The position numbers were made by a program, and so were the translations under genes. Shown here in pieces: positions 37,649 through 50,166 of a stretch of 64,000 bases of DNA; positions within the stretch are counted from its first letter, which is position 1, and each line of letters begins with the position of its first letter. Origin of the DNA: Sinimarinibacterium arenosum. GTDB lineage: Bacteria; Pseudomonadota; Gammaproteobacteria; Nevskiales; Nevskiaceae. The notes below the pieces were generated by a model. It was not told where the DNA came from. It did not search any database and was given only the letters and a program-made list of their open reading frames with translations. The DNA is taken from NCBI RefSeq assembly GCF_005047655.1, contig NZ_SUKF01000005.1:186001-250000 (forward strand), in the 5' to 3' direction.

Positions 37649-39544
37649 TCAGCTCGGACTGCGCAGCGCAGAGACCGGCACGACCGGAACCACCACGCTG
37701 GACGGATGGTCGGCATTGCTGTCGATGCGCAGCACGCCCAGCACCTGATCCAGCAAATCGGTCACCGGCGGCAGTCCATGCGGAAAGTCACTGGTGCTGA
37801 CCGCGATGCGCAGGCTGTGCCCGGCCTTGATCACGAAACTGCTCGGAAACACTTCAACGTTCGCCAGCGCCGGCTCACCGGCAACGAGGGGCGCCTTCGA
37901 CGCCTCGGTATACGGATGCCACGGCTGGATCATTTCACCATCGAGATAGCGCGAACGGCTGGAATCGACCGCGCGCAGCGACACCGTCAAGGTTCCATTG
38001 GTCAACTCGGTTGAACCGCCATTGGGATCGACATCGGTGATACGGACCGCGACGCTCGCATCCGTTCCCAGCGCACGTGAAACCCACAGGTCTGCTTCGA
38101 TCGGACCGTTGACGTAGTAGTCCTGATCCATCGGCGCTGTGGTGTAGGTCACTGCGCCCAGCAATGGGAGTTCGTTGATGTTGTTGCTGCCGCTGAAGCA
38201 CGGCAACGGCAGCAGCCCCAGCACACCGGCAGTCCACTGCGCAGAGCTGACCGAGCACAGACCCTCGACCGGGATCTGCAAGGTGTAACGCGACGCTTCG
38301 TCGGCCGCCGGCAGCTCGGCGCTCAAGGTACGGTCGCCACGCAGATACCAGCGCTCGGCACGCGCCTGCGGATGCGGCCAGTCCGGCGACACCACATAAC
38401 GCTCCTCGCCGTAGACATACTGTGTGACATTGGGCACCGACTCAGCACCGTTGTTGATGCCGCGCAGATAGCGATCGAACCACATCAGCGCAATCTGATT
38501 GACGTCCGGCACGCCGTCCGCCGGCAAGCCGGCGCCAGACGAGGCATCCAGATGGGTCCACGGTCCGATCAGCAGCTTGGTCGTCGCGTTCTTCTTGATC
38601 GTCTCGTACAGCATCGGCTCGCCGCGCTGGAACAGGTCATGCAGCCCGCCAACGATGAAGGTGGGCACGCGCACCCGATCCGCAACCTCGATCGGCGACC
38701 GCGTGCGCCAGAACTCACTGTCATAGTTCTGACCACCGCTCCCCAGGACCGCCTGCGCAATAATCGGCAGGTCGTAAGTGGCGGTACCCAGCACATGGTC
38801 CAGCAAGGCCGGAATCGCTTCAGGCGAAGCTTGCGCCGGAACCAGACCCAGTCCGGTGACCAGACCGATCCACAGCGGGATGAAGCCGACGTTGACCTGT
38901 CCGCCGGTGAACACGATGTCGCGATAGGCGTCGCCCATCGGCACCAGCGCGAAGATCGCCTTGTGTGCCGGATGACGCCAGGCACCGGTGAAGATCTGGG
39001 TGATCCCCATGAACGACGGCCCCCAGGTGCCAACCTTGCCGTTGCTCCACGGCTGCGTCGCCACCCAGTCCATCACTTCCTTGTAATCGAGCTGTTCGCG
39101 CTCGCTGAAGATTTCCCAGGTGCCCTGCGAAGTGCCGGTACCGCGCACGTCGACAGCGACATGCGCGTAGCCATGCTTGACCAGCATGGAATTGAACGCA
39201 AAACCATCGACGTAGCCGGACGCGCTCTTGTTGTAACCGGTCTGGGTCAGAATCACCGGCAGCGGTCCGTCGACCACAGTGCCATCGGCATCGGCCGGCA
39301 ACATCACCTGCGCCGAAAGCAGGGTGCCGTCGCTCATGGTGATGTACTCAGCCGGCATCCGGACGGTGTTGGGATAGTCCTCAACACGCTGATAGTCGGT
39401 CCATTTGGCTGCCGCCGAACTGCCGCCTCTACCATCGCTGCTGCCGCTGTCGGCCCCCGGATCGCTGCTGCCGCAGGCGGTCACGCTCAACACACAAATC
39501 GCGGCCATCACGGCCCCAGCCAGCGACTTTCGCGCTGTCGTCAT
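37649..39544 (-). CDS. CocE/NonD family hydrolase, lipoprotein
   Basis: A 631-residue exported alpha/beta hydrolase of the X-Pro dipeptidyl-peptidase/cocaine-esterase-like family. The signal ends in a lipobox (VMAAICVLSVTAC, then GSSD) followed by a Gly/Ser/Asp-rich linker. The core shows the oxyanion-region ILTQTGYNKS, VAVDVRGTGTSQG, the nucleophile region GTWGPSFMGITQ, and the acid/histidine region GLHDLF...GPWTHLD. A C-terminal jelly-roll (XpsA-type) domain occupies roughly the last 230 residues. The nucleophile motif GPSFMG fits G-x-S-x-x-G. Likely an esterase or amidase on the outer membrane; the substrate is unknown. Confidence 0.85.
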   Translation of the reverse strand: MTTARKSLAGAVMAAICVLSVTACGSSDPGADSGSSDGRGGSSAAAKWTDYQRVEDYPNTVRMPAEYITMSDGTLLSAQVMLPADADGTVVDGPLPVILTQTGYNKSASGYVDGFAFNSMLVKHGYAHVAVDVRGTGTSQGTWEIFSEREQLDYKEVMDWVATQPWSNGKVGTWGPSFMGITQIFTGAWRHPAHKAIFALVPMGDAYRDIVFTGGQVNVGFIPLWIGLVTGLGLVPAQASPEAIPALLDHVLGTATYDLPIIAQAVLGSGGQNYDSEFWRTRSPIEVADRVRVPTFIVGGLHDLFQRGEPMLYETIKKNATTKLLIGPWTHLDASSGAGLPADGVPDVNQIALMWFDRYLRGINNGAESVPNVTQYVYGEERYVVSPDWPHPQARAERWYLRGDRTLSAELPAADEASRYTLQIPVEGLCSVSSAQWTAGVLGLLPLPCFSGSNNINELPLLGAVTYTTAPMDQDYYVNGPIEADLWVSRALGTDASVAVRITDVDPNGGSTELTNGTLTVSLRAVDSSRSRYLDGEMIQPWHPYTEASKAPLVAGEPALANVEVFPSSFVIKAGHSLRIAVSTSDFPHGLPPVTDLLDQVLGVLRIDSNADHPSSVVVPVVPVSALRSPS

Positions 39545-39677
39545 GCTTCTCTCTCCAGAATCGCAAAAAACAAAAAGGCGACGAACACTAGCACCTGGCT
39601 CCGGGCACCCCCATTGGCCGTAGCGACCAACGACCTTAGAAGCTTGCGACGGCATCTGTAAGCCGTTGACTACGTCC

Positions 39678-41840
39678 TCACATCAACCGACCCAGACCGT
39701 CAGCCTGCCCGGACGATGCCTGCTGCAGACGTGGTCGTTGCCGAGCCCACGCCGTCCACGCCAGCAGACTCAGGATCACCAACAGCGAAGCCCAGGTCGC
39801 CGGCTCCGGCCCGGCTGCACCGACGAAGGCAGGCGCCGAACCGCCATAGGCTGCCGGACTCACTCCGGCCACCGGCGGCAACGGTACATCCGCCGTCTTC
39901 ACAGCGCCCGGCGTCGCGTTGACGATCTGCTCGGACACCGCCACGAACGCGGTCCAGCGCGTGACCAATGAGAACGCCAGCCCCAGTTGGGTCACCTGTG
40001 CGCGCACGTCGTCGAGCTGCGGCACCGGCTCGCCGCGCTGCTCGAACCAGTTCGGCGGCAATGACAGACTGCGCATCTGCTCGGCAATCGCCGAGCGCGC
40101 CCAGATCAAGCCCACGGCATCGCCGTCGCGCTGTTCCGGGAGTGACACTGGCAGCATCAAGGTCGCGGCACGACCCCGTGCACGACCGTGGATACGGATC
40201 ACGCCCTCCGCCGCGCCGCGATACCGCCCCTGCACGCGGATCGACTGCCCGGCAAACAGGTCGGGAAGTTGCTGCGGCAGCATTGCCTCGACCGGCAGCC
40301 CGCCCCAGTCGATCTCGATATCGGTCAGCACCGGTGATTGCAGCCGGTCGGTCAGCTCATTGGCGACGCCCGCCACATCCTCGGTCGGATCCATGTAGCG
40401 CGTGAAGCCGCGGCCGACCCGGCCGATCTCATCCAGCAGGAAGCGGTTGACGCCGGTGCCGACACCGAAGGCGTAGAGCCGGGCGTCGCCCAGACGCTCA
40501 CCGACCAGCTTGAGGATCTCGTAGTCGTTGCCGATGTAGCCGTCGGTCAGAAAGGTGACGATGCGCTTGACCCCGGGCGCCGGCGGCGTGTCCAAGGCCT
40601 GATGAATGCCGGACGACATCATCGTGCCGCCCATGCCCTGCAGCGCGTCGACATAGCGCAGACCGGAGGCGATGTTCTGCGGGGTCGCCGCCAGCGGCTC
40701 GCGGCTGAACTCCGTGGCGCTGTCGCTGAAACGAATGATGCGAAAACTGTCGGTCGGCCGCAGCTTGCGCAGGGCCTGGCGCATGAAGGCCTTGCTTGCG
40801 TCCATCGGCAGTCCGTACATCGAACCCGAACAGTCCAGCAGAAACACCATCTCGCGTGGCGTGATGTCGGCATCCTCCGGAGCCGCTGGCGGCTCGATCA
40901 GCAGGGAAAAATAGCCGCCGCGTTGGTCACGCTGTACCAGCAGACCGGCCGTATTGGCCGCACCGGCAAGGCTGTAGCGCAGCACGAAGTCGCGGTTGTC
41001 GATGGTGCGCCCGTGTTCCAGCCCGACGTGCCACTGCGTGGCGCTGTCCGCGCGCGTCGCCAGCCGATGCGTGCGGCTGGACACCGACTGGATCGGCAGC
41101 GCCGACTGCAGATCGATCTGAAGCGACACGCGGTCCTCGTCGATCTGCGGCGGCAGACTCAGCCCGAACACCGGCGGGTATTCCGGCAGTTCAGCCAGAG
41201 TCCAGCGCCCGGATTCGGAGGCGACGTCCGATGCCGCGCTGTCAGCGTCCTCGATTACCGGCGGCTGATCCGCGCCGGGCGGCTGGAAGTGCGGCCCGAC
41301 CACCAGCGGCACCACCAGCTCGTATTCGCCATCGACCTTGGGCACCGTCTGCACGTAACGCAAGGTCACCGTAATCGGCAGGCCCGGCATCAGATTGGCG
41401 ATCTGCTGGGTGAACATGTTCGGCCGCTGCTGCTTCAGCAACGCCGCCGCGCGACCTTCGGACTTCGCTTTGGCAAAGGTCTTCTCGGCCTGCTGCACTT
41501 CCTGCACTTGCGCACGCACGCGCTCGGCGCCGACGTCCATCCACATCTCGTAGACCGCGGCACCGGCATTCAGCGGAAACAGATAGCGCGCATGCAAGGG
41601 CTGCGTTGCCGGATTGGCAAAGGTCTGCACCACCGTGACCGTCGCCAGATCGCCCTGAATCTCCGCACGCACGTCAGTTTTGAGGCTTGGCAGCGCCACC
41701 GGCCGGCCATCGATCTCGGCCTCGATCGTGCCGGCCAGTGCCGGAGGTTCCGCCGCTCGCGAAACCGCCAGCGGCAACAGGAACAGCAACAGCACGAACA
41801 GACCGAACACCAGTGTGCGATTGAGCAGGCTATGCGTCAT
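39678..41840 (-). CDS. VIT-vWA domain protein with PEP-CTERM-like sorting signal
   Basis: A 720-residue exported protein. It has a signal peptide (FGLFVLLLFLLPLAVSRA), a VIT (inter-alpha-trypsin inhibitor) domain at about 38-165, and a von Willebrand A domain at about 330-500 with the metal site DCSGS (336-340) and a later TDGY. A tripartite C-terminal signal follows: PEPATW at 678-683, a hydrophobic helix (about 684-698) and a basic cluster ARQRPR. That is the layout of PEP-CTERM exosortase substrates, although here 16 more residues follow. The body matches the marine proteobacterial sortase-target family (TIGR03788 as I recall). It is encoded 43 bases after the exosortase gene. Confidence 0.85.
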   Translation of the reverse strand: MTHSLLNRTLVFGLFVLLLFLLPLAVSRAAEPPALAGTIEAEIDGRPVALPSLKTDVRAEIQGDLATVTVVQTFANPATQPLHARYLFPLNAGAAVYEMWMDVGAERVRAQVQEVQQAEKTFAKAKSEGRAAALLKQQRPNMFTQQIANLMPGLPITVTLRYVQTVPKVDGEYELVVPLVVGPHFQPPGADQPPVIEDADSAASDVASESGRWTLAELPEYPPVFGLSLPPQIDEDRVSLQIDLQSALPIQSVSSRTHRLATRADSATQWHVGLEHGRTIDNRDFVLRYSLAGAANTAGLLVQRDQRGGYFSLLIEPPAAPEDADITPREMVFLLDCSGSMYGLPMDASKAFMRQALRKLRPTDSFRIIRFSDSATEFSREPLAATPQNIASGLRYVDALQGMGGTMMSSGIHQALDTPPAPGVKRIVTFLTDGYIGNDYEILKLVGERLGDARLYAFGVGTGVNRFLLDEIGRVGRGFTRYMDPTEDVAGVANELTDRLQSPVLTDIEIDWGGLPVEAMLPQQLPDLFAGQSIRVQGRYRGAAEGVIRIHGRARGRAATLMLPVSLPEQRDGDAVGLIWARSAIAEQMRSLSLPPNWFEQRGEPVPQLDDVRAQVTQLGLAFSLVTRWTAFVAVSEQIVNATPGAVKTADVPLPPVAGVSPAAYGGSAPAFVGAAGPEPATWASLLVILSLLAWTAWARQRPRLQQASSGQADGLGRLM

Positions 41841-41883
41841 CGGAATCTCCAGGCAGTGGAAAGAGGAAGGCGATCAAGGAAGT

Positions 41884-43422
41884 TCAACGCGCGTCGGCCA
41901 CGCGATAACCGGTCTGCGCCGGCTCGGCGCCGGGCAGGTCATAGGCGCGCAGCAGCGCGGCGTCCCAATCCGCGCGCGCCGCCGGGTCCAGCGACCACGG
42001 CGTCACCCGCTGCAGCTGGGTCCAGGTGCTGCCAGGCGCCTGCAGCCAGCGCCATACCGCTTCGGCGACGCTGCCGGCGACTTCGCCGCGATCAGAGACG
42101 TAGGACACGGCGACCCGCCAGACCCGACCGTCCGGATCGACGCTGCGGTACAGCGCACTTGGCAGCACCACACTGCCTGCACGGCGGTAGTCGAGCCCGA
42201 GGTAGTCGACGCGATGCCCAGCCCCGCGCAAACATTCGTCCGGCGCATGCAGATGCCGCAGCGGCGCCGTCGTCGTCACCGTCAGCAAACCGAACGGACC
42301 GTAGCCGGCCTTGGCCGCGGCGCCGCCGTACTGTGCGAAGTAGCTGCGTTCCATCGCCGACAGCGACTGCGTCTGCGCTGCATATCCGCCGATGCGAGCC
42401 GGCAGCTCGGCAGCCACGGCGGCATGCGAAACGTCGAGCGGTCGCGCCGGTGCCGACACCGAGCCGAGTGCGACCAACAGGAAGCCGATCGCAGTGAATA
42501 CCGTCGGCCGACCGCGTGGTCCGGTCATGGCCGCGGCACTCGAACTCGGCGCCGGCACGATGATGCGCGGCATCTGCGGCGGCACCCGCCGCGCCCAGGC
42601 GAGCAACGGCAGCAACGGCAGCAACGCGAGGGTCAGCGCCGCCAGCCCCGGCAGCGCGTGCCAGAAACCATCCATCCAGTCGATCTGTGGCCAGTACGCC
42701 AGGCCCAGTGCCAGCAGCGCGATGCGCAGAATGTTGCCGAGCAACGCGGCCGACAACGCCAGCGCAAAACCCGTCACCGCCTGTCGCCCGTTCGGCCGCA
42801 CCACTGCCGCCAGACCAACGAACACCGTCAGTACCAGGGTCAGACCCCGCGCACCGGAACACGGAAGATCGACCAGCACGTCCTGCCCGGCGATCAGGAT
42901 GCGCGTGCCGACGCAGTGCACCTCACCCGCGATCTGGCCCAGCAGCAGACAGGCACCGTCAGCGGACAGCTGCTGCAGGCCGAAACCGATCAGGCGCTGC
43001 ACCACGCGCTCCAGCGGCAGCGAGAACGCAAACAGCAGCGACAGCCACAGCGGCGACACCGCGCGCTGGCGCTGGCGCAGTCCGGCCAGCGTCGCCAGTG
43101 CGTAGACGTCCACCGCCAGGGTCAGCGCGCCAATGACATTGACCCGCAGCACCTGTCCGACCAGACGCACCAGCGCGCTCAGCGTCAGCAACGCATAGGC
43201 GTAGCGCCGGTTCTGATCACTGCCCGGCCGCTGTTCGCTGCTGTATGACCACAACCCCAACGCCAGCACCGCCAGCGCGACCCACAGGCCCTGCGGGTTG
43301 TAGGCCGGCTCGCGCCAGCTGGCGAGCAGCCACAGCAGTGGTGATACCGCCAGCACGCCCGCGCCCAGCGCCAGCAAGGCGAGAGGAAGATGGTTGATGA
43401 CCTGGTGCCCGAAACTCCGCAT
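41884..43422 (-). CDS. Exosortase fused to an EpsI-like domain
   Basis: A 512-residue membrane protein beginning MRSFGHQVINHLPLALLAL. About ten hydrophobic helices make up the exosortase core. All three family active-site residues are present: C188 in DLPCSGARGL, R233 in GNILRIALLALG and H255 in DGFWHALPG. From about residue 300 a soluble EpsI/DUF3485-type domain follows a final helix, with the family's HAPDECLRGAGH at 392-403. Exosortases cut PEP-CTERM proteins and probably attach them at the cell surface. The only evident substrate is the next gene. It may correspond to a curated variant such as XrtT, but this needs an HMM search. Confidence 0.87.
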   Translation of the reverse strand: MRSFGHQVINHLPLALLALGAGVLAVSPLLWLLASWREPAYNPQGLWVALAVLALGLWSYSSEQRPGSDQNRRYAYALLTLSALVRLVGQVLRVNVIGALTLAVDVYALATLAGLRQRQRAVSPLWLSLLFAFSLPLERVVQRLIGFGLQQLSADGACLLLGQIAGEVHCVGTRILIAGQDVLVDLPCSGARGLTLVLTVFVGLAAVVRPNGRQAVTGFALALSAALLGNILRIALLALGLAYWPQIDWMDGFWHALPGLAALTLALLPLLPLLAWARRVPPQMPRIIVPAPSSSAAAMTGPRGRPTVFTAIGFLLVALGSVSAPARPLDVSHAAVAAELPARIGGYAAQTQSLSAMERSYFAQYGGAAAKAGYGPFGLLTVTTTAPLRHLHAPDECLRGAGHRVDYLGLDYRRAGSVVLPSALYRSVDPDGRVWRVAVSYVSDRGEVAGSVAEAVWRWLQAPGSTWTQLQRVTPWSLDPAARADWDAALLRAYDLPGAEPAQTGYRVADAR

Positions 43423-43477
43423 CTGCGTCTCCCTGTGTGCGGTGACCCTCGATGGGAGACGAGTCTGTCCAGCGCGC

Positions 43478-43537
43478 GTGCAGTGCCGACGCCATCGCGG
43501 TGCAGGTTTCGCGGAACTTGGTGCAGATTCTGTGCAA
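43478..43537. promoter_or_regulatory. Helically phased GTGCA repeats in the exosortase/TCS divergent region
   Basis: GTGCAG occurs at 43478, 43500 and 43521, and GTGCAA at 43532. The start-to-start spacings are 22, 21 and 11 bases, whole helical turns, so all four face the same side of the DNA. They lie in the 184-base gap between the divergent exosortase and response-regulator genes, a natural operator region for the regulator. Function is inferred. Confidence 0.45.
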
Positions 43538-43606
43538 GCGGACCGGAGCGCCTTTTTGCAGGCGAACGCACTGCTAAGCTGCACCGGCATTCATGAGGAA
43601 CGCTGC

Positions 43607-44308
43607 GTGGCGAAGATTCTGGTGGTGGACGACGATGCCAACATCCGCGAAGTGGTGTGCTTCGCGTTGCACAAGGCCGGCTATCAAACCTGTGTGGCCG
43701 ACAACGGTGAGCAGGCGCTGCAGCGCGTCGCCAGCGAGGCGCCGGACCTAGTCGTGCTCGACATCCTGATGCCGGAACTCGACGGCACTGAAGTCTGCCG
43801 CCGGCTGCGCGCCGACCCACGCCACGCCGCGCTGCCGATCATCTTCCTCAGCTCGAAAGATGATGAAATCGATCGCGTCGTCGGGCTCGAACTCGGCGGT
43901 GACGACTACGTGTCCAAACCGTTCTCCCCGCGTGAACTGGTCGCTCGGGTCCGCGCACGGCTGCGCGCGCTGCAGGCAGCCGTGCAGCCGCCGGCAACGC
44001 GCCTGCAGCATGGCCGCCTCGCGCTCGACACCGAACAGTACAAGGCCTGGTGGAACACGCACGAACTCGACCTCACCCCGACCGAGTTCGGCATCCTGCG
44101 CACCTTGCTCAGCCGCCCCGGCAAGGTCTGCACCCGCGATCATCTGATGAACGAGGCTTACGAGCTCAACCGCATCGTCAGCGACCGTACCATCGACAGT
44201 CACCTGCGCCGCGTGCGCGCCAAGCTGGCCGACGCCGGCGGCGCTGCGGCCGGCGAGGCCATCGAAACCGTGCACGGCATCGGCTACAAACTGGGGCCGT
44301 GCACGTGA
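43607..44308 (+). CDS. OmpR-family response regulator, dedicated (exo)sortase type
   Basis: A 233-residue two-component regulator. The receiver domain starts AKILVVDDDANIREVV, has phosphoacceptor D52 in VVLDILMPELDG and the conserved lysine in DDYVSKPFSPRELVARV. A winged-helix OmpR-type DNA-binding domain follows (LTPTEFGILRTLLSRPGKVCTRDHL...VSDRTIDSHLRRVRAKL). Translation starts at GTG 43607, with GAGGA seven bases upstream. Its stop overlaps the GTG start of the kinase gene. It is divergent from the exosortase gene and resembles the PdsR-type regulators of dedicated sortase systems. Confidence 0.9.
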   Translation: MAKILVVDDDANIREVVCFALHKAGYQTCVADNGEQALQRVASEAPDLVVLDILMPELDGTEVCRRLRADPRHAALPIIFLSSKDDEIDRVVGLELGGDDYVSKPFSPRELVARVRARLRALQAAVQPPATRLQHGRLALDTEQYKAWWNTHELDLTPTEFGILRTLLSRPGKVCTRDHLMNEAYELNRIVSDRTIDSHLRRVRAKLADAGGAAAGEAIETVHGIGYKLGPCT

Positions 44309-45951
44309 AACTGCCGCGGGTGCGCCTGCGCACAATCCTGCTGCTGATCAATCTGGTGATCCTGCTTCTGCCGCTGGGCGGCATTACCTGGCTGCGGCTG
44401 TATGAAAGCGCACTGATCCGCCAGACCGAATCCGAGCTGATCGCGCAGACCGCATTCATTGAAGCCGCCTATGTCAGTGCGTTCGAACGCCTCCGGACCG
44501 ATCGTCACAACACCCGCCGTGCGATCAAACCGGAAACCTACGGGGCGCCGGTCACCGCACCGCCGCCGCCGCGCGATCCCGAAGGTCGCTGGCGCCCGCG
44601 CTGGGCCGAACTGGATCTGGCCAGTGATCGAGTGTGGCCGCGGCCGCCCGATCCCGAACCGACGGCACAAAGTGCCGATCCTCTCGCGGTGCAGATCGGG
44701 CGAGAACTGACGCCGATGTTGCGCGAGGCGCAGCACATCACCCTGGCTGGCATGCGCGTGGTCGACTATCGCGGCGTCATCGTTGCCTCGACCGGCGACG
44801 GCGCCGGCGACGACACGGGGCAGTCGCTGACAGCGCTGGAGGAAGTGCGCGAAGCACTCACCGGCGCCTCGGTCAGCCGCATGCGCTGGCGCAACTCGGA
44901 TTCGCCGCCACCACCGCTGGAGTCGATCTCGCGCGGCACCCGCATCCGCGTCTACGTCGCTGAACCGATTGAACACGACGGTCGTGTGCTCGGCGCGATC
45001 CTGCTGATCCGCACGCCAGCCAACATCAAACAGGCGATCTACGGCAAACGGATCCCGCTGATGCGCGCCGGCCTTGGCCTGCTGGCGCTGGTCGTGCTGC
45101 TGACGCTGCTCAGTTCGCTGACGATCAGCCGACCAGTGCATCAGCTGATCAGGCAGACCCGGCGCGCTGCCCGCGGCGAACGCGGCGCCATCACACCGCT
45201 GGAACATCCGGGCACACGCGAGATCGCCGAGCTGTCCGAGAACGTCGCGGCCATGGCCGAGGCGCTGGAGACCCGCAGCGCCTACATTCGCGATTTCGCC
45301 GCGCACGTCTCGCACGAATTCAAGACACCGCTGACCGCGATCCAGGGTTCGGTGGAGCTGCTGCGCGACCATGGCGACGGCATGTCGACCGAAGAGCGCA
45401 CGCGCTTTCTCGACATCCTCTCGGCCGACACCGCCCGACTCGAACGCCTGGTGCGGCGCCTGCTGGAACTGGCGCGGGCCGACATGATGCAGGCGGGCGC
45501 CGAACATGCCGATCTGGGCGTCGTCACCGGCGCGGTCGCGCAGCGCTATCTGGATAGCGGACTCGCGGTCCAGGCCGCCGGCGATCCGGGCATTGAAGTC
45601 GAGATCGCCGGCGACGTTCTCGATTCGATGCTCAGCAGCCTGCTCGACAATGTGCGCCAGCACGGCGGCGACGGCGTCAGCGTGCGGCTGTGGTGGCGCC
45701 TCAGCGCCGCTCACTCGGGCCGTGCGGAACTGCATGTGCAGGACGACGGCAGCGGCATCTCTGCCGCCAATCGGGAAAAAGTATTCGAGCCCTTCTTCAC
45801 CACCGCCCGCGCGCGTGGCAGCACCGGCATGGGATTGGCGATCATCCGCACCTTGCTGCACGCGCACCATGGCGAGATCGAATTGCTGGAATCAACCGCC
45901 GGCACGCATTTCCGCATCCGCCTTCCGCTTGCCTCCCATACTCCTTCATAG
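44305..45951 (+). CDS. Sensor histidine kinase of the exosortase locus
   Basis: A 548-residue inner-membrane kinase. TM1 is at about 9-30 and a periplasmic domain at 31-252; the latter includes a proline-rich stretch and a Cache-like fold ending in VYVAEPIEHDGRVLGAILL. TM2 is at 253-273, HAMP at 274-325, the HisKA domain with H337 in HVSHEFKTPLTAIQGS, and a HATPase domain with LLDNVRQHG, VQDDGSGI and STGMGLAIIRTLL. The GTG start overlaps the regulator stop (GTGA), so the pair is translationally coupled. The periplasmic domain would sense an envelope cue, perhaps the state of the sorted protein (inference). Confidence 0.9.
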   Translation: MKLPRVRLRTILLLINLVILLLPLGGITWLRLYESALIRQTESELIAQTAFIEAAYVSAFERLRTDRHNTRRAIKPETYGAPVTAPPPPRDPEGRWRPRWAELDLASDRVWPRPPDPEPTAQSADPLAVQIGRELTPMLREAQHITLAGMRVVDYRGVIVASTGDGAGDDTGQSLTALEEVREALTGASVSRMRWRNSDSPPPPLESISRGTRIRVYVAEPIEHDGRVLGAILLIRTPANIKQAIYGKRIPLMRAGLGLLALVVLLTLLSSLTISRPVHQLIRQTRRAARGERGAITPLEHPGTREIAELSENVAAMAEALETRSAYIRDFAAHVSHEFKTPLTAIQGSVELLRDHGDGMSTEERTRFLDILSADTARLERLVRRLLELARADMMQAGAEHADLGVVTGAVAQRYLDSGLAVQAAGDPGIEVEIAGDVLDSMLSSLLDNVRQHGGDGVSVRLWWRLSAAHSGRAELHVQDDGSGISAANREKVFEPFFTTARARGSTGMGLAIIRTLLHAHHGEIELLESTAGTHFRIRLPLASHTPS

Positions 45952-46130
45952 CGTGTGCAGGGGGCGCAGGTCGCTCTCCTAGACGCGGGCATGCACGCCG
46001 CCATCGCCAGACCGCGCGGGGCCGGATCCATCGCGCATGCCTGCAGCGGCACGGCTAGCCAGTGGCTGCCCGCCCTGCGATGATGCGCGCCCTTCGCGCG
46101 TCGGATTCACACTGCGATGGGAGGATCAGC

Positions 46131-47441
46131 ATGACAACATCGACACCCAAACAGCATCCCGCCAACGTCCGCGCAGTCGCTGCCACTAGCGTCAGCCATG
46201 TCCTGCGCGGCAGCAATCTGGATGACGCGCTGCGCCCAGCCGAGAAGCTGGCGCTGCCGGCCGATGCCGCAATGGTGCGTCTGATGGCCTACGGCGTACT
46301 GCGCGAGTTGACCGCACTGCAGTGGATTGCGTCGCGCCTGATGGACAAACCGCTGACGGCGACGGACAACGTACTGACGCTGATCCTGGTGGGCCTGTAT
46401 CAGCTGCGCACCCTGAAAACCCCGCCACACGCCGCGATCAATGAGACCGTCGACGCGTTGCAGGCCTTGCGCAAGCCGCAGATGCGCGGTGTCGTCAACG
46501 CCGTGCTGCGCCGCTACACCCGCGAAGCAGCCAAGCTCGAAGCCGAGCTGCCGCGCGCGCCGGCAACCCGCACCTCGCATCCGCAATGGCTGGTTGACCG
46601 CATCAAGACCGACTGGCCACAGCAATGGGAAGCGGTGCTGCAGGCCAACAATCAACAGGGGCCGATGAGCCTGCGCGTCAATCGCCGGCGCATGCCACGC
46701 GACGAGTACCTGAAGCGTCTGGGCGAAATGAACATCGCCGCTACCACAGCGGAAGGTGCTCCCGACGCCGTGGTACTGGCCGAGGCACGTTCGGTGGAAC
46801 GCGTCCCCGGCTTCAACAGCGGCCAGGTCTCGGTCCAGGATGCCTCGGCACAGCTTGCGGTCGAGCTGATGGACCTGAAGGATGGCCAGCGCGTGCTCGA
46901 TGCCTGCGCCGCGCCAGGCGGCAAGACCGCCCACATGCTGGAGCGCGCGGAGGTGGACGTTGTCGCGCTCGATTCCGACGGCACGCGCCTGTTGCGCGTT
47001 GACGAGAACCTTCAGCGGCTCAAGCTGAAAGCACAGATCGTGGCAGGCGACGCTGGCGAACCGGCGCGCTGGTGGGACAAATACAAGTTCGATCGCATCC
47101 TGCTCGACGCACCCTGCTCCGGCACCGGCGTGATCCGGCGCCATCCGGACATCAAGTGGCTGCGCCGCGACACCGACATCCCGGCGCTGCAGCAACAGCA
47201 GCTGCGCCTGCTCAAGGCACTCTGGCCGTTGCTGAAATCCGGTGGCCGCCTGGTCTATGCCACCTGCTCGGTGTTGCGGGACGAGGGCGACGAAGTCATC
47301 AAACGCTTCAAGCTGCTGCACGCGGACGCGCAGCTGCAGAAAATCGATACCAGCTGGGGCGAGGCCACCGAGTTCGGTCGCCGCATCGCGCCGGGCGGCG
47401 CGCACGACGGCTTCTATTACGCGGTTCTGAGCAAGCGCTGA
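46131..47441 (+). CDS. rsmB: 16S rRNA (cytosine-967-C5)-methyltransferase
   Basis: A 436-residue enzyme with an N-terminal NusB-like RNA-binding domain (about 10-145). The SAM-dependent RsmB/NOL1/NOP2/Sun catalytic domain follows: VLDACAAPGGKTAHMLE, LDAPCSGTGVIRRHPDIKWLR (first cysteine) and LVYATCSVLRDE (catalytic cysteine). The start is ATG 46131, with GGGAGG seven bases upstream. In E. coli and Pseudomonas rsmB directly follows fmt; here they are 13 kb apart. Confidence 0.96.
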   Translation: MTTSTPKQHPANVRAVAATSVSHVLRGSNLDDALRPAEKLALPADAAMVRLMAYGVLRELTALQWIASRLMDKPLTATDNVLTLILVGLYQLRTLKTPPHAAINETVDALQALRKPQMRGVVNAVLRRYTREAAKLEAELPRAPATRTSHPQWLVDRIKTDWPQQWEAVLQANNQQGPMSLRVNRRRMPRDEYLKRLGEMNIAATTAEGAPDAVVLAEARSVERVPGFNSGQVSVQDASAQLAVELMDLKDGQRVLDACAAPGGKTAHMLERAEVDVVALDSDGTRLLRVDENLQRLKLKAQIVAGDAGEPARWWDKYKFDRILLDAPCSGTGVIRRHPDIKWLRRDTDIPALQQQQLRLLKALWPLLKSGGRLVYATCSVLRDEGDEVIKRFKLLHADAQLQKIDTSWGEATEFGRRIAPGGAHDGFYYAVLSKR

Positions 47442-48221: not shown

Positions 48222-48369
48222 GCGTGTTTGGAAATGAGCCACCACTGGACGCCCATCATCGCCTCAGACGTGACGTGTCGCACTTTTGCCGCTGACACCG
48301 TTTTATAGATTAACTGGGGCGTGCATCGGGGGTCCGGCACGCGTCCTGATTTCTGGAGCTCATACCGTG

Positions 48370-50166
48370 ATGAAATTTTTCGCACGGGCGTCTGTACTGG
48401 CGTCCGCATTGTCCTGTCTGCCGTTGCTCGTGCCCGCTGCCAGGGCTGCCGGTGACGGCGAGTCCGCCATTCTGGTGCTGGACGCCTCCGGTTCAATGTG
48501 GGGCCAGCTTCAGGGCAGGACCAAGATCGAACTGGCGCGCGACGCCGTGGACGGCATGCTCAAGCAGTGGCCGGCCGACCAGTCGCTCGGCCTGATCGCC
48601 TACGGCCATCGCCGCAAGGGCGACTGCGAGGACATCGAGGTGCTGCGCCCGGCCCAAGGCTTCGACGCCGCGGCGATCCGCAGCCAGGTCAATGCGCTGA
48701 CCCCCAAGGGCATGACACCGATCAGCGCCTCGGTCCGGATGGCGGCCGAACAGCTCAAGTTCACCGAACACAAGGCGACGGTCATCCTCGTCAGCGACGG
48801 CGAGGAAACCTGCAACGCCGACCCCTGCGCGCTGGGCACCGAGCTGGAAAAGCTCGGCGTGGATTTCACCGCGCATGTGATCGGCTTCGACCTGCCCGAA
48901 GGTAAGGCGCGCGAACAGCTGCAGTGCCTCGCGAAGAACACCGGTGGCGAATACTTCGAGGCCCGCGATGCGGGCGAGCTGACCAAGGCGATCAGCGAGG
49001 CGGTCAGCGCCAGCACGACCCCGGAACCGGTACTGGGACCGGCGCCGGCCAGCGTGCGTGCCGAAGGCCCGGCCATCATCACCCAGCCGGTCGAGGTGCA
49101 CTGGACCGGCCCCGGTGAAAAGGGCGACTACCTTGCCTTCGTCGACCCCACCAAGGAAAGCGCGAATGCCTGGGGCGAGACAATGCTGCGTATTCCCACA
49201 CAGAACGGGAGCTCTGCTGAGGGCGTCAGCAGCGGCGTGCTGAAACTGGATGCGCCGGCACATCCGGGGCGCTACGAGCTGCGCTACGTCAGTGATACGC
49301 GGGAACCGCCAGTCCTGGCCAAGACCGTGGTCGAGGTGAGCGACGCCGTCTCGGTGATCGAGGCGCCGGATACCGCCGAAGCCGGTGGCAGCATCACCGT
49401 GGTGGCGCGCGGCCCGGCGGATCCCCGCCACTGGGTCGGCTTTGCACCCGCCGGCAGCGACGTCAGCACCTACCTCAAGAATTACTACGAGCGCCCGACC
49501 GGCGATGTCAGTACGCTGAAACTGAACGTCCCCGCCGAACCCGGCGCCTATGAAATCCGCTATGTGCTGAACGAAGGTGAGCGCGTGCTCGGCAGCAAGC
49601 CGATCACAGTCGTCGCGGCAAAGACATCGGTCAGCGGCCCCGCCACGGTGATGGCGGGGGACCGGGTCAAGGTCAGTGCCAGCGGTCCGTCCAGCAACCG
49701 TCACTGGATCGGCTTTGCCCCGGCCGGCAGCGGCGCCGGCGCGTACGTCGGCGGCGCCTACGATCGCCCTCAGGGGTCGAAATCGGAGTTGACGATCAAT
49801 ACACCGCTGGAACCGGGCGCTTACGAGTACCGCTACGTGCTCGACGAAGGCGAGGCGATCGCGGCATCGCAAGCGGTGACTGTCACTGCCGCAACCGCCG
49901 AGATGTCGATTGCCGCAAACGTCACCGCTTCCACCGCGCTGAACGTTCCGTTCCGCGGGCCGCGCAACACCAGCAACTGGATCGGCTTCGTCCCGCGGGG
50001 CGGCGACGGCAGCGAATACGCAGGCTGGAGCTATGTGCCCGCGCAGGGTGACGTGGTGGAACTGCGCGCACCCGACGACGCCGGCAGCTGGGATCTGGTT
50101 TTTGTCGTCGACAGTATGGTGATCTCGCGTACACCGGTGCAGGTCTCCGCCGGTGTCTCCCCGTAG
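48370..50166 (+). CDS. Secreted vWA protein with four Ig-like repeats
   Basis: A 598-residue exported protein with signal peptide SALSCLPLLVPAARA. A von Willebrand A domain spans about 32-205, with an intact metal site DASGS (38-42), a conserved T in the TPKGMTPIS loop, and VSDGEE. Four tandem beta-sandwich repeats follow at about 227-323, 327-416, 418-506 and 509-592. The middle ones share W(V/I)GFAPAG and P.EPGAYE.RYVL.EGE, and the first and last are more diverged. The function is unknown; a surface or periplasmic adhesion or scaffolding role is an inference. The next two genes on the same strand probably form a module with it. Confidence 0.85.
   Translation: MKFFARASVLASALSCLPLLVPAARAAGDGESAILVLDASGSMWGQLQGRTKIELARDAVDGMLKQWPADQSLGLIAYGHRRKGDCEDIEVLRPAQGFDAAAIRSQVNALTPKGMTPISASVRMAAEQLKFTEHKATVILVSDGEETCNADPCALGTELEKLGVDFTAHVIGFDLPEGKAREQLQCLAKNTGGEYFEARDAGELTKAISEAVSASTTPEPVLGPAPASVRAEGPAIITQPVEVHWTGPGEKGDYLAFVDPTKESANAWGETMLRIPTQNGSSAEGVSSGVLKLDAPAHPGRYELRYVSDTREPPVLAKTVVEVSDAVSVIEAPDTAEAGGSITVVARGPADPRHWVGFAPAGSDVSTYLKNYYERPTGDVSTLKLNVPAEPGAYEIRYVLNEGERVLGSKPITVVAAKTSVSGPATVMAGDRVKVSASGPSSNRHWIGFAPAGSGAGAYVGGAYDRPQGSKSELTINTPLEPGAYEYRYVLDEGEAIAASQAVTVTAATAEMSIAANVTASTALNVPFRGPRNTSNWIGFVPRGGDGSEYAGWSYVPAQGDVVELRAPDDAGSWDLVFVVDSMVISRTPVQVSAGVSP

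Follow-up and report, generated by a model that had tools for sequence, protein, structure and literature searches.

A 64,000-nt stretch of Sinimarinibacterium arenosum DNA (assembly GCF_005047655.1, contig NZ_SUKF01000005.1, positions 186,001–250,000, forward strand; hereafter the window) carries a gene for exosortase T (xrtT), followed by a gene for a VIT-vWA protein with a PEP-type tail (the target) and preceded by a box of TGCAC repeats, together with a divergent gene pair encoding an OmpR/PhoB-type response regulator and a sensor histidine kinase (Table 1). From the genes present, the families to which they belong, the recurrence of all four and the joint presence of kinase, box and xrtT across genomes, we consider it likely that these elements form a dedicated exosortase T module, in which the kinase–regulator pair switches on xrtT and the target gene via the TGCAC box and XrtT processes the tail of the target. 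In the mechanism that we infer, the kinase would read an envelope signal and the OmpR-type regulator would become phosphorylated, bind the TGCAC repeats at 43500–43536 and activate the xrtT–target operon; the target would then be exported and XrtT would cut its PEP-type tail, after which the VIT-vWA protein would be either released or attached somewhere past the inner membrane. The role of this protein is probably envelope protection or adhesion.

The exosortase belongs clearly to the curated exosortase T (XrtT) family. It scored 592.1 bits against NCBIfam model NF033770 (cut-off 250), with residues 16–496 aligned to positions 3–472 of the 472-position model; the second-best exosortase family in the NCBIfam profile search was XrtO, at 61 bits. 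The whole window protein thus matches XrtT, with no difference at the family level, as an initial annotation of this locus had anticipated in suggesting that a curated XrtT family may already cover the class. In a 19-row XrtT alignment, R233 and H255 were invariant (19/19), as was C188 in all 18 rows covering the site; we take these three residues, correctly numbered by the initial annotation for the 512-aa protein, to be catalytic. The same annotation described a fused EpsI-like domain. The fused C-terminal region is present and lies inside the span of the XrtT model, but the EpsI label was not borne out: no EpsI-named family was among the matches of the exosortase in NCBIfam (E ≤ 10) or Pfam (E ≤ 1), and the name goes back to an LHxPxxCLxGxG-type motif. 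A literature search, whose coverage excluded most subscription journals, found no paper joining exosortase and XrtT. Papers that came up for XrtT, XrtQ, XrtN or exosortase T, Q or N were, judged by title, unrelated to exosortases, and the one that came up for CreBC with sortase is, by title, a general text on biofilms and resistance. XrtT is predicted, from sequence, to act on the target as a protease or transpeptidase.

The target has a Sec-type signal peptide (by eye) and VIT and vWA domains (Pfam), and its residues D336, S338, S340, T406 and D433, of the metal ion-dependent adhesion site (MIDAS) type, were conserved across nine aligned targets. Its C-terminus, read by eye, consists of PEPATW, a hydrophobic stretch and the basic cluster WARQRPR, and PEP was present in the tails of 15 of the 17 XrtT-type targets read. 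By profile, the protein is a TIGR03788 homologue that falls below the family cut-off (434 bits, E 9e-130; cut-off of 551.65 not reached), and TIGR02595 (PEP-CTERM) was not among its NCBIfam matches at E ≤ 10. The XrtT-type target of G459 (L065:7148-9545, C294) is read as two overlapping open reading frames (ORFs) of 638 and 192 aa, owing either to a broken reading frame or to faulty assembly.

XrtT exceeded its cut-off in 4 of 369 genomes of the class, in 3 of 85 genomes of the order, all of them within the window's genus (3/11 there), and in 14 of 40 genomes of the order to which G068 belongs. These surveys overlap and gave 18 XrtT genomes in all, with L001 as the 19th xrtT locus. The target gene followed xrtT in 18 of the 19 loci; the exception was G467, whose contig ends inside xrtT. 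Clustering of 17 xrtT neighbourhoods showed that the families recurring in at least four were the exosortase, the target, the kinase and the regulator, while families F5 and F7 recurred in three loci each; F4 and F6, frames opposite the regulator/kinase and target genes, were not counted, so that one cluster of frames opposite the regulator/kinase genes is set aside in this result. The N-terminal 319 aa of the kinase were found in 16 of the 18 XrtT genomes compared to 4 of 41 genomes without XrtT. In six genomes (G199, G459, G464, G467, G468 and G469), xrtT and its box were on one contig and the pair on another.

The four genomes with the kinase N-terminal region and no XrtT were G399, which has an XrtQ module, G159, G475 and G001. 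For G475 and G001, only the regulator–kinase pair was present in the stretch read. G159 encodes an XrtQ-like exosortase (139.5 bits, cut-off 270) and an XrtN-type VIT protein (TIGR04477, 105.5 bits, cut-off 250) of 828 aa with an IPEPSTW tail; its orthologous regulator pair, with an interrupted kinase frame, lies beside the XrtQ-like exosortase (L138:1519-8358, C4), and a separate gene matches the C-terminal part of the XrtT model at 34 bits.

The organism's own genome (4.54 Mb, 24 contigs, 99% complete) agrees with the initial description of a single-target exosortase module. Only one of two Pfam exosortase matches at E ≤ 10 was over the cut-off, the other scoring 13.7 bits; TIGR03788 gave one match of 434 bits, the next best scoring 58.5 bits; and the best PEPxxWA-type match was the tail of the target itself (E 0.07, below cut-off). 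A check for other PEP-CTERM proteins was less telling: TIGR02595 gave no match in this genome at E ≤ 1e-3, but this short model was equally silent in every control genome, so that the null result alone proves little.

The TGCAC box upstream of xrtT is new in this analysis, the repeats having first been seen on reading the DNA in front of the gene. Its two-repeat core, TGCAC-N6-TGCAC, was found wherever sequence in front of xrtT was available, at 18 of 18 loci; at the remaining one, G460, the contig starts inside the gene. Of 15 loci measured, 14 have 65–67 nt between the end of the box and the start codon; the window has 77 nt. The window box has no mismatches and is the sole match in the window at up to two mismatches (0.45 expected at that laxity); a fourth TGCAC follows on the same strand at 43478–43482. 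This site is also the only exact three-repeat match in the organism's genome. Across 59 genomes the exact three-repeat box occurred 18 times, 16 of them at xrtT and some of these in genomes whose pair lies on another contig, compared to none for the reversed control, and the third repeat was altered in L001 and G469. One of the two remaining occurrences lies in G399, the only one of the 41 genomes without XrtT to carry the three-repeat box, between creD (identified at 436 bits) and an orthologous regulator–kinase pair; the other precedes an alpha-2-macroglobulin gene in G467 (48.8 bits by weight matrix), which suggests, at the sequence level, a second regulon member in this XrtT genome.

In G399 (L173:6896-12199, C2), creD is divergent from the orthologous pair, which is followed by rsmB. 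The G467 box (L192:8697-8733, C12:13696) stands 214 nt before the longest-ORF start of the alpha-2-macroglobulin gene, whose product has 1898 aa. G001, where no XrtT match was found at E ≤ 1e-3, has a degenerate TGCAC box of 26.2 bits between lgt and its orthologous pair (L174:8758, C52). A two-repeat site upstream of the XrtQ-type target of G399 is weak aside from its position, this genome having 11 matches vs 14 in the control.

That the box serves a different regulator, or is an xrtT promoter element, with no action of the neighbouring pair on it, seems improbable to us. The box tracks the kinase across genomes, including in G399, where it lies at creD next to the orthologous pair, its degenerate form stands beside the pair in G001, and the repeat spacing suits OmpR/PhoB-type regulators. 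Such a reading would nonetheless accommodate the loci in which the pair lies elsewhere (L175–L181), where no box above 15 bits was found near the pair, and binding of the regulator to the box is itself a prediction. According to the accessible part of the source, the cre/blr tag is TTCACN6TTCAC, with a repeat spacing equal to that of the TGCAC box (PMC4689548). This tag is absent from the window, where TGCACN6TGCAC is the only match to T[GT]CAC-N6-T[GT]CAC; unit length and spacing are thus shared with the cre tag, with TGCAC here and TTCAC there.

Several observations weigh against a strictly dedicated, one-to-one module. Having a single exosortase is not a general property of these genomes: G038 and G068 each show a second, weaker exosortase-like match. 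A kinase match was missing from two of the XrtT genomes, both about 75% complete. PEP was absent from 2 of the 17 XrtT-type targets read, and the tail of the window target reached 12.5 bits against a cut-off of 35 with NF035944 (PEPxxWA), the sole sorting-tail model matched. The organism's genome also contains 14 two-repeat matches, two places being counted on both strands, compared to one in the control; the regulator may therefore have other sites.

The regulator and kinase of the XrtT module are most similar to CreB and CreC, the best-scoring families of the pair, yet remain below both cut-offs. The regulator scored 231.3 bits with CreB (cut-off 273) and 168.9 bits with TIGR03787 (cut-off 335.7); the kinase scored 169.9 bits with CreC (cut-off 356) and 86.2 bits with TIGR03785 (cut-off 612.2), the latter over residues 212–541 only. 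In the regulator tree, which carries a long-branch warning for Escherichia coli PhoB, BaeR, ArcA and CreB and for L149, the sortase-type, CreB and XrtT-type regulators formed three clades, the XrtT-type clade with support of 100/99. The N-terminal parts of PdsS-type and XrtT-type kinases align only at XrtT-type positions 152–321, and the XrtT-type part aligns to CreC in its later portion only; L174, L156 and L117, which had no HisKA match, were left out of this sensor comparison. We therefore rejected the assignment of the pair to PdsR/PdsS, given scores far under the TIGR03787 and TIGR03785 cut-offs, the separate regulator clade and the partial N-terminal alignment, and likewise its assignment to CreBC proper, given scores below the CreB and CreC cut-offs, the separate clade and an N-terminal part that aligns to CreC only partly. 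An orthologous pair of the XrtT type does adjoin creD in G399. An AlphaFold model of the kinase sensor was weak (mean predicted local distance difference test score 63.4, 5 rows); its Foldseek matches to a WalK model and to DctB sensor crystal structures (best E 1.1e-5 and 1.2e-4) hint that the sensor may have a Cache-like fold.

Other enzymes and regulators accompany VIT-vWA targets elsewhere. TIGR03788 exceeded its cut-off in 53 genomes (50 + 3 from two surveys), and a class GN sortase stood beside the target in all 25 of the loci examined. No sortase-model match was found in 27 xrtT locus stretches (9 of them duplicates or near-duplicates), among them the 14-kb locus L077 of the window organism, the part of its genome searched for sortases. 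Like the dedicated sortase system (TIGR03784, TIGR03788, TIGR03787 and TIGR03785), the window locus combines a single VIT-vWA target beside a sorting enzyme with, as is often the case there, a divergent two-component pair; unlike it, the window has an unrelated enzyme, and its target, regulator and kinase all fall below the respective cut-offs. The XrtQ (NF012182) modules of G399 and G311 also place an exosortase beside a VIT-vWA target, which there has a TPEP tail and is encoded first, and G311 combines a CreBC-type pair with a TTCACN6TTCAC tag. Specifically, its XrtQ scored 324 bits (cut-off 270), its regulator falls in the CreB clade, its kinase aligns to the CreC profile over 252 columns, and it carries TTCACACTCGCTTCAC before its target. 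In the window's order, the kinases of the TIGR03788 sortase loci G434 and G371 scored 550 and 517 bits with CreC (cut-off 356), and their regulators fall in the CreB clade. G434, G371 and G433, whose kinase was not scored with the CreC model, share the tag TTCACACGGACTTCAT before the target, one mismatch from the cre tag; since G433 and G434 are of one genus, these count with G371 as two independent cases, not three. These cre-like tags stand against 5–9 matches at up to two mismatches per 18–19 kb stretch. TTCACN6TTCAY sites before VIT-vWA targets lie at L115:7277, L116:8579 and L117:7974 (sortase loci of G434, G433 and G371) and at L120:7394 (XrtQ locus of G311).

As enzymes and regulator clades differ across these relatives, the same kind of target occurs with three enzymes and three regulator lineages. 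The accessible part of a 2011 report describes a VIT/vWA family with GlyGly-CTERM, LPXTG (dedicated sortase TIGR03784) or PEP-CTERM tails, the PEP-CTERM form occurring in Verrucomicrobium spinosum with a cognate exosortase (PMC3237569); the central idea is thus not new, and that part of the report mentions no XrtT, regulator or binding box. In other genomes, loci L130–L136 encode VIT-vWA proteins with GlyGly-CTERM-like tails (by eye), which form their own clade in our target tree.

The initial annotation explained the window locus by a swap, in which an exosortase replaced the sortase of a class GN ('class D') system while the target and PdsRS-type regulation were kept. Searches with the profiles that it named brought XrtT over its cut-off and left TIGR03788, TIGR03787 and TIGR03785 below theirs. 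The explanation was partly supported: the homology of the target to TIGR03788 was borne out, but the low TIGR03787 and TIGR03785 scores and the three regulator clades gave no support to the retention of regulation from the sortase system. XrtT-type (100/100) and sortase-type (100/99) targets form separate clades in the target tree, around which lie XrtQ-type, GlyGly-tailed and locally enzyme-less VIT-vWA proteins; the last (L119, L121–L123 and L125–L129) are defined by having no sortase or XrtT/XrtQ-like match in the fetched stretch. Approximately unbiased (AU) tests, run on a quick tree with six near-identical XrtT rows left out and with groups named after the first tree was seen, did not reject a clade of XrtT-type and sortase-type (GN) targets (p 0.485), but rejected XrtT with XrtQ (p 0.0165), XrtQ with GN (p 0.0007) and all three sorted target types together (p 7e-7).

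We rather favour independent recruitment over repeated occasions, in which a common VIT-vWA scaffold gained different tails and enzymes, each near an OmpR-type regulator. The three AU rejections, the interleaving of unsorted and GlyGly-tailed relatives in the target tree and the three tails of one family in the accessible part of the 2011 report (PMC3237569) are consistent with this; the unrejected clade of XrtT-type and GN targets speaks against it, as do a target tree that is unrooted, has long branches and contains only two XrtQ rows, and the fact that enzyme loss in the unsorted relatives would yield the same pattern. Unless those relatives lost their enzymes, the target tree implies that at least two enzyme–target associations arose independently. 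The swap appears unlikely to us. Besides the target homology and the unrejected clade, it would account for the comparable divergent arrangement of target and pair at many sortase loci and for a weak grouping of the XrtT-type and sortase-type regulator clades (91/81); it sits poorly with the low regulator and kinase scores, the separation of these two types in the regulator tree, the restricted alignment of their sensors, and VIT-vWA proteins with no nearby sorting enzyme that fall between the sorted clades.

Alongside independent recruitment, a broader view, on which our opinion is evenly balanced, holds that VIT-vWA surface modules are assembled from interchangeable components (class GN sortase, XrtT or XrtQ, with three OmpR-type lineages) and unified by CreB-related regulators. 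The XrtT-type pair would act at nearly one site, with creD or alpha-2-macroglobulin as alternative outputs, pointing to envelope protection. In Stenotrophomonas maltophilia, envelope integrity is reported to suffer when CreD is lost (PMC4689548); this and the alpha-2-macroglobulin site are suggestive of such a role without demonstrating it.

On re-reading of ORFs and sequence, the initial description of positions 39678–45951 was correct to the base. The 43-base gap between xrtT and the target gene, both on the minus strand, and the PEPATW–helix–basic tail agree with coordinates and sequence, as do the translational coupling of regulator and kinase, joined by a GTGA overlap, and their divergence from xrtT. 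The longest-ORF start of xrtT at 43590 was rejected, as the conserved box would then fall within the coding region.

Table 1. Features of the exosortase T locus, in window coordinates.
Feature	Position	Strand	Evidence
VIT-vWA target, 720 aa, PEPATW–hydrophobic–basic tail	39678..41840	-	Pfam VIT + VWA; TIGR03788 434 bits, below cut-off; MIDAS-type residues
xrtT, exosortase T, 512 aa, fused C-terminal region	41884..43422, ATG at 43422	-	NF033770 592 bits, cut-off 250
Direct-repeat box TGCAC-N6-TGCAC-N16-TGCAC, candidate response-regulator site, 37 nt	43500..43536	-	Pattern match; conservation at xrtT loci
OmpR/PhoB-type response regulator, 233 aa, GTG start	43607..44308	+	Pfam Response_reg + Trans_reg_C; best family CreB, below cut-off
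Sensor histidine kinase, 548 aa	44305..45951	+	Pfam HAMP, HisKA, HATPase_c

An S15 (X-Pro dipeptidyl-peptidase type) protein at 37649–39655 begins about 23 nt past the target gene in the same orientation; an 82% homologue follows the target in G413, and a 61% homologue lies nearby in G409. rsmB comes after the kinase in the window (46062–47441) and in G413. Near the locus, positions 48286–50166 encode a second vWA protein, which by eye carries a signal peptide and, at its C-terminus, repeated modules, and which has a 75% homologue in G413.

Exosortase systems often have many targets, according to the accessible part of one report (PMC3237569), and are therefore hard to dissect. With one enzyme, one substrate, one regulatory pair and apparently one strong box per genome, the XrtT module would allow the exosortase reaction and the control of it to be tested on their own. 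The module also offers a specific prediction for the output of a CreBC-like regulator, and separates the parts that are exchanged, enzyme and regulator, from the part that is kept, the VIT-vWA protein.

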